Shown here: one piece after another, positions 2,595 through 6,284 of the stretch
Numbering within the stretch: the stretch's first letter is position 1
Layout of the letters: each line of letters opens with the position of its first letter
Source: a virus
Length of the DNA stretch: 36,317 nucleotides
Direction: 5' to 3' (one strand)
IMG/VR virus record: IMGVR_UViG_3300034198_015370
Location: 1 to 36,317 of that record
Notes under the pieces: generated by a model
Database searches by the model: none
What the model was told of the DNA's origin: nothing
The model's input: the letters and a program-made list of their open reading frames with translations, nothing else
Made by a program: the position numbers and the translations under genes

Positions 2595-2624
2595 AAAGGG
2601 AGCTTCGGCTCCCTTTTTTTTTTT
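2595..2624 (+). terminator. strong intrinsic terminator after gp32
   Basis: GGGAGC (2598-2603), a TTCG tetraloop, and GCTCCC (2608-2613) form a perfect stem, extendable by three A-T pairs, followed by eleven T residues (2614-2624). It sits between the convergent gp32 gene and the 740-residue minus-strand gene. Read leftward, the same hairpin is followed only by TTTC, so it should act weakly in that direction. Confidence 0.95.
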
Positions 2625-4845
2625 ATGCCGTGAATTGCAAATTCTTCATTTGCTCGTTGAATAGACCACTTCTCATCAAATCGCCAAAGAACGAATTATC
2701 AGAAACTCGCATATCATTACTGCCGTTATAATCAGAAGAAGAAGAGTTCAACTGTGTTCTTTGACCACCAGCCTGTTGCTGACTTTGTGCTGCATTTGAT
2801 TCTTCAGAGGCTCTAATAGCGGCTTGTCTTGATCTATCCTCTAAAGAAGATTGCTGTACAGCTGTTTGCTGTAGCATAGAGGTCCTTTCTGTTCTTGGAC
2901 CCATCATAGTTCCTGCGCCAGTCAACCCTCCTAACAATAAACCTGCTAACCCACCTAGAGCAGCTCCTCTGCCGCCTCCGATCATACCACCCATCATAGC
3001 TAGTGGGTTGGCTCCCATACCCATACCAGGCTGCATACCCATACCCATTTCTTGAGGACCTCCCATTGGTCCACCGCCCATAGTTTGAGCCATCGGTATG
3101 CCGTGAAACCTTTGCATCATAGCAGCTTCTCGGTAACTCATACCGCCGCTCTCGCCGCCCATTCCCCCTGTGCCGCCCCCTGATCCACCACCATATTGAC
3201 CACCGCCTGGAGCTCCTGCGCCGCCCCCTGGTCCACCGCCATATTGTTTTCTGCCTGGAGCGCCTCCTACGGCTTCCTGCAGCCAACCAGCGGCGTTGCT
3301 ACCTTTGCCACCAGCTCCCCAAATAGCTTCTTGGCCGAAACCAACGTGAATTCTAGAGCCACCCATGTAGTCTTCGCCAGCTCCGATTCCTGTTGCTCCT
3401 CCTGCGTGAGCTGCAGCAACGAATTTTTTCATAATAGCTTGATCAGCTTTACTGGCTGGGTTCAATTGTCTATCGCCTATGAATAGGTCGACATCAGCAG
3501 CGTTACCGTTATCATGTCTAGTAGAACCAGTTCTAGCACCACCCTGGCCAGCGGCAGGTTGTCCTCCAGATTTAACTCTAACAGTTACACCACCAGATTC
3601 ATCGGCAGCTTTTTGTAACACACCTTTCAGCTTCTGACTGATTGGTAATTTTCTAGTAGCAGCTTCTCTCCCTTGATCTTCTATAACTTGACCGCCACCA
3701 GAGCTTGATTGACCTTGTTCGCCTCCAGCTCCACCTAAAGCTGGAGTTGCTCCTGGTCTTTGTTGTGCAGTAGCGTTAGGCTGACCTGATTGAGCAGCTG
3801 GAGTTGCTCCTGGAATTTGTTGTGCAGTAGCGTTAGGCTGACCTGATTGAGCAGCTGGTGTAGTATTAACTGTAGAAGCATCGCCTTGTAAACCAGCAGC
3901 TGCTACATTTTGATTGTATTTTTTTAACCAAGAAGATTGGTAAGTTTGTGCAGTTTGACCCCTGTTAACCGTTAATGCTTTGGGACTCATATTGCCTTCT
4001 GGGTTGCCCGTGTACCAAACATTAGGAACTTTGGAAACGTCACCCTTAACTCTCACTAAAATTTCTTTGATATAATTTTTAGCAACAGCATCTTGAAGTT
4101 CTGGCGGAGCCATCATAGCTCTAGGGAACATTTGAACATCTACGCCGATTTTTTGAGCTTGAGCTTTCCAAGTGCTATCAGTAAATTGATACCCGCCAGA
4201 AGCAGTAGAACCTTGACCTTCAGCAAAACTTGGGTTGCGGTAAGAGTTAGGTGATTCTTTACCTTTGATTGTTTTTCTTATTAATTCTACTTTTTGTTCT
4301 TCAGTGCCCGCAAATTGAGCTACACCGCCACCTGGTATATTTCCTCCAGGTTCCCCAACTGTAGTTCCTCTACCTGCCACATAGCCAGCGCCACCCGCAG
4401 CCAAAGCTCCAGCACCTGCAGCTGCTATCGTAGCATATTTACCAAAAACCCTTCCAGCAAGTTTTTTTGCCCAACCAGTAATACCTCCTCCGTCACCATC
4501 TCCTTCTTTTTTACCGCCCGCAGCATTATCATCAAGAGATTTTTTAATATCTCTCAAAGTCGAAAGCATATTTTGCTGTATCTGAATAGACTGTTGAAGA
4601 ATACTATTATTGTTTTCTATTTTAGAAGCAGTTTGTTGAGACTGAGTGTTTAAGGTGTTGATACTAGAAATCATTTCATTGTAATTGGTCTTATTACTAG
4701 AAAAAACGTTACTAATATCTTTAATAACCTTTGAAATGTTTTTGTTATGTTCTCCAGCCGCTTGCTTAAAGCTATTTGTCACATTACCCATAGTGGAAAT
4801 GTGTTTAGCAAGTTGTGATATACCTGAAGATTCTTGACCAGCCAT
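2623..4845 (-). CDS. virion cell-wall hydrolase with transglycosylase-like and M15-type peptidase motifs; possible tape measure
   Basis: This is a 740-residue protein. Residues 1-110 look like a coiled coil. Residues 137-158 are a hydrophobic Gly/Ala stretch. Residues 190-310 resemble a lytic transglycosylase fold, with E197 in KGKESPNS and GGYQFTDSTW at 217-226. Residues 400-520 resemble an M15/VanY-type peptidase: S-x-H-x-x-G-x-A-x-D at 441-451 (H444, D451) and RIHVGFG with H500. The C-terminal third is rich in Gly and Met, with a second hydrophobic stretch near 618-645. It starts 3 bases after the gp51 stop, where lambda-like phages place the tape measure after the chaperone pair, and tape measures often carry such domains. 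The function as tape measure is inference; wall hydrolysis during DNA entry is more secure. Confidence 0.7.
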   Translation of the reverse strand: MAGQESSGISQLAKHISTMGNVTNSFKQAAGEHNKNISKVIKDISNVFSSNKTNYNEMISSINTLNTQSQQTASKIENNNSILQQSIQIQQNMLSTLRDIKKSLDDNAAGGKKEGDGDGGGITGWAKKLAGRVFGKYATIAAAGAGALAAGGAGYVAGRGTTVGEPGGNIPGGGVAQFAGTEEQKVELIRKTIKGKESPNSYRNPSFAEGQGSTASGGYQFTDSTWKAQAQKIGVDVQMFPRAMMAPPELQDAVAKNYIKEILVRVKGDVSKVPNVWYTGNPEGNMSPKALTVNRGQTAQTYQSSWLKKYNQNVAAAGLQGDASTVNTTPAAQSGQPNATAQQIPGATPAAQSGQPNATAQQRPGATPALGGAGGEQGQSSSGGGQVIEDQGREAATRKLPISQKLKGVLQKAADESGGVTVRVKSGGQPAAGQGGARTGSTRHDNGNAADVDLFIGDRQLNPASKADQAIMKKFVAAAHAGGATGIGAGEDYMGGSRIHVGFGQEAIWGAGGKGSNAAGWLQEAVGGAPGRKQYGGGPGGGAGAPGGGQYGGGSGGGTGGMGGESGGMSYREAAMMQRFHGIPMAQTMGGGPMGGPQEMGMGMQPGMGMGANPLAMMGGMIGGGRGAALGGLAGLLLGGLTGAGTMMGPRTERTSMLQQTAVQQSSLEDRSRQAAIRASEESNAAQSQQQAGGQRTQLNSSSSDYNGSNDMRVSDNSFFGDLMRSGLFNEQMKNLQFTA
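3745..3858 (-). repeat. two tandem 57-base repeats in the linker of the hydrolase
   Basis: Two near-identical 57-base copies encode a 19-residue unit, TPAAQSGQPNATAQQ followed by I/R-PGA, at about residues 329-366. They lie in the Ala/Gln/Pro-rich linker between the two enzyme-like domains, where copy-number change would alter linker length. Confidence 0.85.
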
Positions 4846-4848
4846 CTA

Positions 4849-5025
4849 TTAACCTTTTTGTTTTTCTTCTTCTATTTTCTTTAAATGCGTGACTAACATT
4901 TCAACATATATGTCTCTTTCAAAGGGTATCATATTCTCAATATCAGTAAGAGAATATTTATGGTGCTGAATCAAAGAGAAATTTACAGTGTAGTAATTTT
5001 CTAAATTGTTATGATTCAGCGCCAC
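4849..5025 (-). CDS. 51: gp51-like baseplate hub assembly catalyst / chaperone tail extension
   Basis: This 58-residue frame carries ENYYTVNFSLIQHHKYSLTD and then the MIPFERDIYVEML segment, the pattern I associate with marine T4-like gp51. It overlaps the end of gp26 by ten bases in the -1 frame. The only initiator before the conserved part is a GTG (5025-5023), and no ribosome-binding site precedes it, only a run of T. It is therefore better explained as the C-terminal extension of gp26 made by -1 frameshifting: slipping on the T run adds one Phe and continues into this frame, giving a 291-residue fusion. T4 gp51 is a separate and much larger protein. The stop lies 3 bases before the 740-residue gene. 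Confidence 0.7.
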   Translation of the reverse strand: MALNHNNLENYYTVNFSLIQHHKYSLTDIENMIPFERDIYVEMLVTHLKKIEEEKQKG

Positions 5026-5034
5026 GAAAAAAAA
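4961..5034 (-). promoter_or_regulatory. candidate programmed -1 frameshift site with downstream stem-loop
   Basis: In the coding (minus) strand, eight T residues (5034-5027) contain T-TTT-TTT in phase with the gp26 frame, the classical X-XXY-YYZ heptamer (5034-5028). Slipping back one base leads straight into the gp51 frame, three codons before the gp26 stop. Downstream, 5024-5012 pairs with 4973-4961 in 12 of 13 positions (one C-A mismatch). The uninterrupted 9-pair part begins 7 bases after the slip site. Inside the 38-base loop a second 6-pair stem (5007-5002 with 4985-4980) can form. Confidence 0.7.
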
Positions 5035-5723
5035 TCATTTAACGAACTTAGAACGATTTTTCTATCGTTCCCCATTTCGTTTTTATACTCAATAGTGTGT
5101 TCAATTTTAGGCGCAGTCATAAGGAATTCGTTAACCGATTCAAACGTTTTAATATCTAAATTCTCTAAAAACTCTTCTAGTTCTTGTCTTTTATAGTCTT
5201 TGACATTATAGATTTCGTCTTCAACGAAAACGTTATCAATACATCTTATGATCAACTCAAACATGTAATCTTTTTCTAAACTCAAAAACTCTTTATCATC
5301 GTATAGAGAAGCAGAAGGGTATTTCATAGTCATACCGACCTTATCATTTATCTTGATAACGTTATCGATATTTTCTGGGTAATTAACTTCAATAGTGTTC
5401 AGGTCGATCTCGAAATCATAAACCTTATTATCTTCAGAATCTTTGTAAGAGACTTTAATCTTATTGTCTACAGAAACAGCTCTCAATTTTAAGAAAATAA
5501 ATTCTAAATCAAAAATAGAAAGCTTGTTGATGTCCAATTTTTCTAACAAACAATTGTTAACAACTTGTTTAATTGCTGATAACGAATCAGAAGGGTTATC
5601 GCTTTCTTTCGCCATCAACAGTAGTTTTTCTTCTTTAACCAGAAATGGTCTAAATGTATAGGTCTTTTTTAAAGAAGGTACATTGATATTATAAATCGGG
5701 TACTCTATTTTTGGTAGTGACAT
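5016..5723 (-). CDS. 26: gp26-like baseplate hub protein / tail assembly chaperone
   Basis: This 235-residue protein resembles the T4_baseplate (gp26) family: an N-terminal beta segment (IEYPIYNINVPSLKKTYTFRPF at about 5-26, then VKEEKLLLMA), an acidic middle part with many alternating hydrophobic residues, and a helical C-terminal part. T4 gp26 is 208 residues and is needed to build the baseplate hub. The ATG follows TGGAGC on the minus strand. As in T4, gp51 follows gp26. The last codons run through the T-rich slippery site, so most ribosomes should stop at TGA (5018-5016) and a fraction may shift into gp51. This parallels lambda gpG/gpGT, whose short and extended forms wrap the tape measure. 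Confidence 0.75.
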   Translation of the reverse strand: MSLPKIEYPIYNINVPSLKKTYTFRPFLVKEEKLLLMAKESDNPSDSLSAIKQVVNNCLLEKLDINKLSIFDLEFIFLKLRAVSVDNKIKVSYKDSEDNKVYDFEIDLNTIEVNYPENIDNVIKINDKVGMTMKYPSASLYDDKEFLSLEKDYMFELIIRCIDNVFVEDEIYNVKDYKRQELEEFLENLDIKTFESVNEFLMTAPKIEHTIEYKNEMGNDRKIVLSSLNDFFSWR

Positions 5724-5738
5724 ATTATAGCTCCAAAA

Positions 5739-6284
5739 TTAAATTAAATTGTAATTCGCATAAGTGATACCAACATTCATTCTTATAAGCTCAGAGCTAC
5801 CCCAGTTTAAAGATGTTTCTTGAATAGAAGTCGGGTAAGCATCGAATAAATTGTAAGTGTGAACAATATAACCGCTTGGGTCATATACAGTTATTTGAAT
5901 TGTTGTTGAATAGTTGTCTTTATACTCAGCATAGTAGCCTGGAATTTGATTTTCAGCGCCGTTGTATTGAAAAATTCTTCTAGTCCATTCATACCAAAAA
6001 CGCCAAATTTCGCCGTCATTATCGCATATCATTGATATAGAATTTTCACTAAAGTTTGCGCTGTGCGCTTGCTTTTGGGTAGGTCCAACACCGTATCTTT
6101 GATTATCAGTTGTCAATATAGTTATGCCTGGCATTTTGATACTGTCAGCTCTGAACCTCATCATATCAGGGACAGGAGTATTTCTCAAAATGTTAGGAGG
6201 TCTTATAGCAATTTCAAAATGATTACCTTTTAGGTATCCATATTGCTCTATATTACTCTTAAATGTTTCTATGTTAAAAGGCAT
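5739..6284 (-). CDS. tail-tube-fold protein (gp19/gp54-like)
   Basis: The 181-residue sequence follows the tail-tube pattern of T4 gp19: GNHFEIAI near the N-terminus, a central MRFRADSIKMPGITI segment comparable to the gp19 CKATALPAG region, WRFWYEWTRRI in place of a FVDWQSI-like helix, and a C-terminal LFDAYPTSIQETSLNW plus NVGITYANYNL, comparable to WPTNVGELQLDW plus LALDYW. It could be a tube subunit or, given its place among baseplate genes, the tube initiator (gp54 role) joining tube and baseplate. It lies 8 bases after the preceding gene and 15 bases before gp26 in the same direction. Confidence 0.7.
   Translation of the reverse strand: MPFNIETFKSNIEQYGYLKGNHFEIAIRPPNILRNTPVPDMMRFRADSIKMPGITILTTDNQRYGVGPTQKQAHSANFSENSISMICDNDGEIWRFWYEWTRRIFQYNGAENQIPGYYAEYKDNYSTTIQITVYDPSGYIVHTYNLFDAYPTSIQETSLNWGSSELIRMNVGITYANYNLI

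Follow-up and report, generated by a model that had tools for sequence, protein, structure and literature searches.

The gp26/gp51 locus in the window, i.e., the whole 36,317-nucleotide stretch of IMG/VR virus record IMGVR_UViG_3300034198_015370 analyzed here, is most probably (probability roughly 0.88) a T4-like tail assembly chaperone gene which is read in two ways, a pair of the lambda G/GT type. Most ribosomes would translate gp26 (TAC-N) to its stop codon. On U_UUU_UUU, with tRNA-Phe occupying both the P and the A site, a minority would slip back by one base, helped by a downstream stem. These ribosomes would read past the stop into the gp51 domain, and the product would be a TAC-NC protein of 291 amino acids. 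On the lambda G/GT analogy, the tape measure protein would be coated by numerous short copies, a few long copies would recruit the tail tube subunit via the gp51 domain, and both forms would be discarded afterwards. Slipping in vivo and its efficiency, the contacts with tape measure and tube, and the loss of both forms from the virion are proposed on this model. Comparison of sequences establishes the conserved site, frame and silent bases, the stem in the window's clade and the homology of the products to T4 gp26 and gp51, with no convincing start for gp51. A preliminary description of this DNA had already put forward a chaperone pair following the lambda G/GT logic, and this is supported here by a comparative survey and by compensatory changes in the stem in the window's clade. 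The features of the locus are as follows.

5739 to 6284, minus strand: tail tube-like protein, immediately upstream (PF23849, E 1.1e-10; phrog_45, E 7.9e-28)
5016 to 5723, minus strand: gp26 or TAC-N, zero-frame ORF of 235 amino acids, short form (PF12322, E 4.5e-57; phrog_150, E 8.7e-61)
5028 to 5034, minus strand: slippery heptamer T_TTT_TTT, phased for a -1 tandem slip (sequence; survey of relatives)
5016 to 5018, minus strand: zero-frame stop TGA, three codons past the heptamer (sequence)
4849 to 5028, minus strand: gp51 or TAC-C, -1 extension of 59 residues, then TAA (phrog_634; phrog_150 positions 236-281; hhalign to T4 gp51)
5012 to 5025, minus strand: 5' arm of the downstream stem, nine pairs from 5020-5012 and four from 5025-5022 (fold z; covariation in 44 relatives)
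4960 to 4973, minus strand: 3' arm of the downstream stem, nine pairs from 4973-4965 and four from 4963-4960 (fold z; covariation)
4977 to 5002, minus strand: nested second stem, 5002-4998 and 4996-4993 with 4986-4983 and 4981-4977 (predicted in the window only)
2623 to 4845, minus strand: next gene, 740 amino acids, candidate tape measure (position only)

Positions 5045-5016 of the minus strand read TCG TTA AAT GAT TTT TTT TCG TGG CGC TGA. The gp26 frame had been described as ending three codons after an in-phase T-TTT-TTT, which holds base by base (5034-5028, with the TGA at 5018-5016). The heptamer sits inside a run of eight T. From there the -1 frame is open to the TAA at 4851-4849 and reads FF followed by FVALNHNNLENYY..., and the predicted fusion product has 232 + 59 = 291 residues, the size given before. 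It is also correct that the gp51-like frame of 58 residues lacks an ATG and a ribosome-binding site. The sole nearby start in the window is a GTG at 5025, which gives the 58-residue ORF and has no Shine-Dalgarno sequence. The next gene adjoins the pair directly, as claimed, but its assignment as tape measure is positional only, and no significant match was found for it in Pfam, PHROG or NCBIfam. In some cyanophages, the gene at the same place contains lysin-like domains.

The survey set comprised 86 loci, namely 80 IMG/VR contigs, five isolates and the window. The 80 IMG/VR loci were recruited by a gp26 search that was blind to the junction; searches with single proteins yielded few loci. The 86 loci are related to each other, and the counts given here do not represent independent events. 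An in-phase T_TTT_TT[T/C/A] was identified in 86/86 loci, with 47 TTTTTTT, 37 TTTTTTC and two TTTTTTA. All 86 loci keep the gp51 frame open across the heptamer, and in 85 of them it is the -1 frame. The spacing between heptamer and gp51 is the same in 84/86 loci, and the zero-frame stop lies 0-8 codons past the heptamer in every locus. An alignment of the junction in homologues had been suggested in the preliminary description; across the 86 loci, the in-phase heptamer and the -1 overlap are kept and the gp51 start codon is not. Heptamer, -1 relation, spacing and stem recur in relatives at 34-72% protein identity. In cyanophage S-SCSM1 (5969-6055) the heptamer is kept and an 11-nt insertion follows right after it, which brings gp51 out of the -1 frame. 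This insertion is either an error in the sequence or the mark of a lineage in which gp51 has its own start.

The break between the frames falls in a homopolymer, and the window is a single uncultured contig, as would be expected if a sequencing or assembly error had split a single fused ORF. However, the same break is present in 85/86 separate records, complete isolate genomes among them, and an in-frame fusion occurs in 0/86 loci. Because the break recurs in this way, a homopolymer error was rejected, and its probability appears negligible.

The silent positions around the slip site were compared with the expectation from codon usage. Codon -1 has T as its last base in 86/86 loci (56.3 expected), and the first Phe codon is TTT in 86/86 (59.9 expected). 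The second Phe codon, whose last base is the free Z base, is TTT in 47 loci vs. 59.0 expected, i.e., without a T bias. In the neighbouring codons -8 to -2, there is no T excess. The probability of this silent-site pattern would be around 10^-30 for independent loci, a value which is overstated since the loci are related. The contrast between adjacent codons holds regardless of this probability. Judged by codon usage, the heptamer is more than a conserved Phe-Phe pair, with the silent-site constraint lying exactly at the X and Y bases.

Public records annotate distinct gp51 genes, and gp51 could be made as a separate protein by termination-reinitiation or translational coupling, from the GTG at 5025 in the window and from an ATG near the gp26 stop in relatives. 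The GTG is in frame and close to the stop, an ATG precedes the gp51 core in 30/86 loci, and an ATG overlaps or adjoins the stop in KVP40, a distant relative, and in nt-1, Cr30, phiM9 and phiM12. The Ackermannviridae-like Vibrio phages K397, K476 and 1.255.O have no heptamer and instead an overlapping TAATG, with the ATG over the stop; here, reinitiation rather than slipping is perhaps used. In these three phages, gp26/gp51 adjoin ribonucleotide reductase genes and not the tail tube gene. However, 31/86 loci contain no ATG, GTG or TTG for gp51 at all. A Shine-Dalgarno sequence of 4 or more was detected at gp51 starts within reach in 0/86 loci, whereas the same rule finds one at 65/85 gp26 starts. 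The A/G-L-S-H residues are conserved, with LSH encoded just a few codons past the slip site, and reinitiation would leave the heptamer's silent bases free to vary. A separately started gp51 is considered very unlikely, and ribosomal slipping into the -1 frame is preferred.

For the RNA downstream of the heptamer, a stem with 12 of 13 pairs had been described, with a 9-pair part seven bases past the slip site and a further stem nested inside. It is found in the window in this form. Nine unbroken pairs (5020-5012 with 4973-4965) lie seven bases after the heptamer and are extended past one C.A mismatch by 5025-5022 with 4963-4960. The loop of 38 nt holds the nested stem. The predicted fold has a minimum free energy of -22.5 kcal/mol (z -7.5), and 0/200 shuffled sequences were as stable. 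Over the 86 loci, the mean z of downstream folding against shuffled sequences was -2.20, compared with -0.39 for an upstream control stretch.

No consensus structure was found across 57 mixed loci; the stem emerged after the loci were split by heptamer type. In 44 T_TTT_TTT loci, the 9-pair stem is paired in 90.9% of cells vs. 22-39% in slid controls. Compensatory changes were detected at 6/9 pairs, and changes on both sides of a pair in 19 cells vs. 4.7 in shuffles (reached in 0/500). Both arms are coding, yet coding constraint alone predicts no joint change. By its pairing and covariation, the stem is real in the T_TTT_TTT group, which is the clade of the window. In the 34 T_TTT_TTC loci it is absent (51.0% paired vs. 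50.8% in shuffled sequences), so the stem is not a universal part of the system. For many T_TTT_TTC loci, a compact hairpin in varying register is predicted a few bases past the site, in place of the long-range stem. A search of the region against Rfam gave no match.

The eight consecutive T in the window might also allow transcriptional slippage, by which a U is added or dropped and the mixed mRNAs supply both frames. Runs of 6-7 T are short for transcriptional slippage, and the run has only six T in 38/86 loci and only seven in 40/86. In addition, the T_TTT_TTC loci preserve a heptamer whose last base is free, and a covarying stem at fixed spacing fits ribosomal slippage. Transcriptional slippage appears even less likely than a separate start of gp51.

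In profile searches, gp26 of the window matches PF12322 and PHROG 150 over its full length. It is the single PF12322 match in the 36-kb record, which is probably a fragment; a second full-length copy is not present there but might lie elsewhere in the genome. The 58-residue gp51 frame matches PHROG 634 (E 3e-26) and also positions 236-281 of the 282 positions of PHROG 150, which indicates that fused relatives exist. T4 gp51 (249 amino acids) is a fused relative, matching PHROG 150 from 13 to 280 and PF12322 over the whole length. T4 gp26 (208 amino acids) ends at PHROG 150 position 235. In profile comparisons, marine gp26 matches T4 gp26 (99.3%) and aligns with T4 gp51 up to about residue 202 (97.7%). 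Marine gp51 aligns with T4 gp51 from residue 203 on (hhalign, 95.5%, E 1.5e-8) and gave no match to T4 gp26 (0.15%). T4-type gp26 and T4-type gp51 are paralogues (99.3%), and their genes in T4 lie on opposite strands and are divergently transcribed. According to these alignments, T4 gp26 is the short form and T4 gp51 is the short form with the marine "gp51" as its C-terminus.

The frame had been called gp51-like. It is indeed related to T4 gp51 but covers only about the last 48 of its 249 residues; in the public record of KVP40, a small ORF was already noted as resembling the C-terminus of T4 gp51. The preliminary description had further presented gp26 and gp51 of T4 as separate hub proteins. 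They are encoded by two genes, but this view misses their paralogy and the correspondence to short and long forms. Since T4 gp26 is the counterpart of the short product and T4 gp51 that of the long one, T4 supports rather than contradicts the chaperone reading. The AlphaFold prediction for gp26 is confident, with a pLDDT of 89.6 and a pTM of 0.83, and three helices are predicted for the gp51 domain (pLDDT 78). A sequence search of the PDB with the gp26 profile gave no match. A PDB fold search returned nothing significant, with the HK97 chaperone 2ob9 only at E 1.5-2.6 and TM (target) 0.32-0.45.

Heptamer and -1 frame were also identified in S-PM2, Pelagibacter phage Mosig, DSL-LC03, Sinorhizobium phage phiM12, Delftia phage phiW-14, Vibrio phage K491, Aeromonas phage 65.2, Caulobacter phage Cr30, KVP40, nt-1 and Methylophilales phage Melnitz-2. 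The site of phiM9 is T_TTT_TTG. The heptamer is absent from six gp26 genes of the duplicated type (T4, FL15, KARL-1, phiP4-3, Aeromonas phage 31 and RB43). The gp51- and gp26-like duplicates of RB43 (3501-5187) form a tandem on one strand, whereas the T4 pair is divergent. A hidden frameshift in T4 gp26 was considered and rejected: the gene ends with GAG TTC TTT GAG TTA CTA TAA without a gp51-like frame behind it, and gene 51 lies on the opposite strand.

A tree was built from 38 sequences. One side of a branch in it (support 99/97) is made up of T4-type gp26 and gp51, and the gp51 copies form one clade (100/98). KVP40, K491 and Aeromonas phage 65.2, which are of the frameshift type, join the T4-type sequences apart from the rest (95/88). 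Of these three, KVP40 and 65.2 are assigned to the Straboviridae. The topology fits a single duplication that replaced an ancestral frameshift in the T4 lineage. Frameshifting would be ancestral and replaced once by duplication if the root lies outside the Straboviridae. On balance, we lean slightly towards a wider picture in which the covarying long-range stem belongs to one branch and not to the T_TTT_TTC branch, and the "hub assembly catalyst" gp51 of T4 represents the long chaperone form, which a single duplication released from control by frameshifting. Slipping would then determine the ratio of short to long form in most lineages, whereas in T4 it would depend on two genes that are transcribed separately.

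A publication by Vladimirov, Gautam and Davidson (2022, Virology 566:9-15) reportedly claims in its title the identification of tail assembly chaperone genes in T4-like phages. It is cited in a passage of a later paper for poly-T slippery sequences in T4-like TAC-N genes (PMC12846349). From this title and this citation, the chaperone identity and probably also the slippery site in some T4-like phages are already known. In a literature search that covered few subscription papers, neither the covarying stem nor the silent-site constraint, a gp26/gp51 frameshift in cyanophages or a survey of this kind was found to be described.

The role of T4 gp51 has been given as "essential, of unknown function", and the composition of the T4 hub, gp26 included, has been called contradictory (PMC3004832). 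Both the puzzling role of gp51 and the contradictory hub make-up would be explained if gp26 and gp51 are short and long chaperone forms. The result also calls for a correction of annotations, as the public records examined give gp51 as a separate gene with inconsistent starts or miss it, and never as a joined frameshift product. Moreover, it offers a natural comparison of one protein ratio that a first branch would control through ribosome slipping and a second branch through two genes.

The arrangement is like that of lambda gpG/gpGT and P2 E/E+E'. Two overlapping frames lie between the tail tube gene and a following long gene, a heptamer is located just before the first stop, and the -1 extension adds a C-terminal domain. 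The inferred function would be the same; the likeness is one of arrangement, and no sequence relation is claimed. In lambda, the tape measure is coated by the short form, while tube subunits are brought in by the long one (PMC5009743). Unlike in lambda and P2, the site of the window type is T_TTT_TTY, and the clade of the window adds a long-range stem with a 38-nt loop. A -1 frameshift that is likewise conserved, at a T-rich site of a TAC-N gene with the tape measure gene downstream, was described for phage Adele and the Vandenendeviridae/Andersonviridae (PMC12846349). These are different phage families, and in contrast to the window their site is GTTTTT (PMC12846349). Both T4 gp26 and the N-terminal part of T4 gp51 are homologues of the window gp26, and the C-terminus of T4 gp51 is the homologue of the gp51 domain. 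However, T4 has two divergent paralogous genes without the heptamer, whereas the window has one gene with a -1 overlap.
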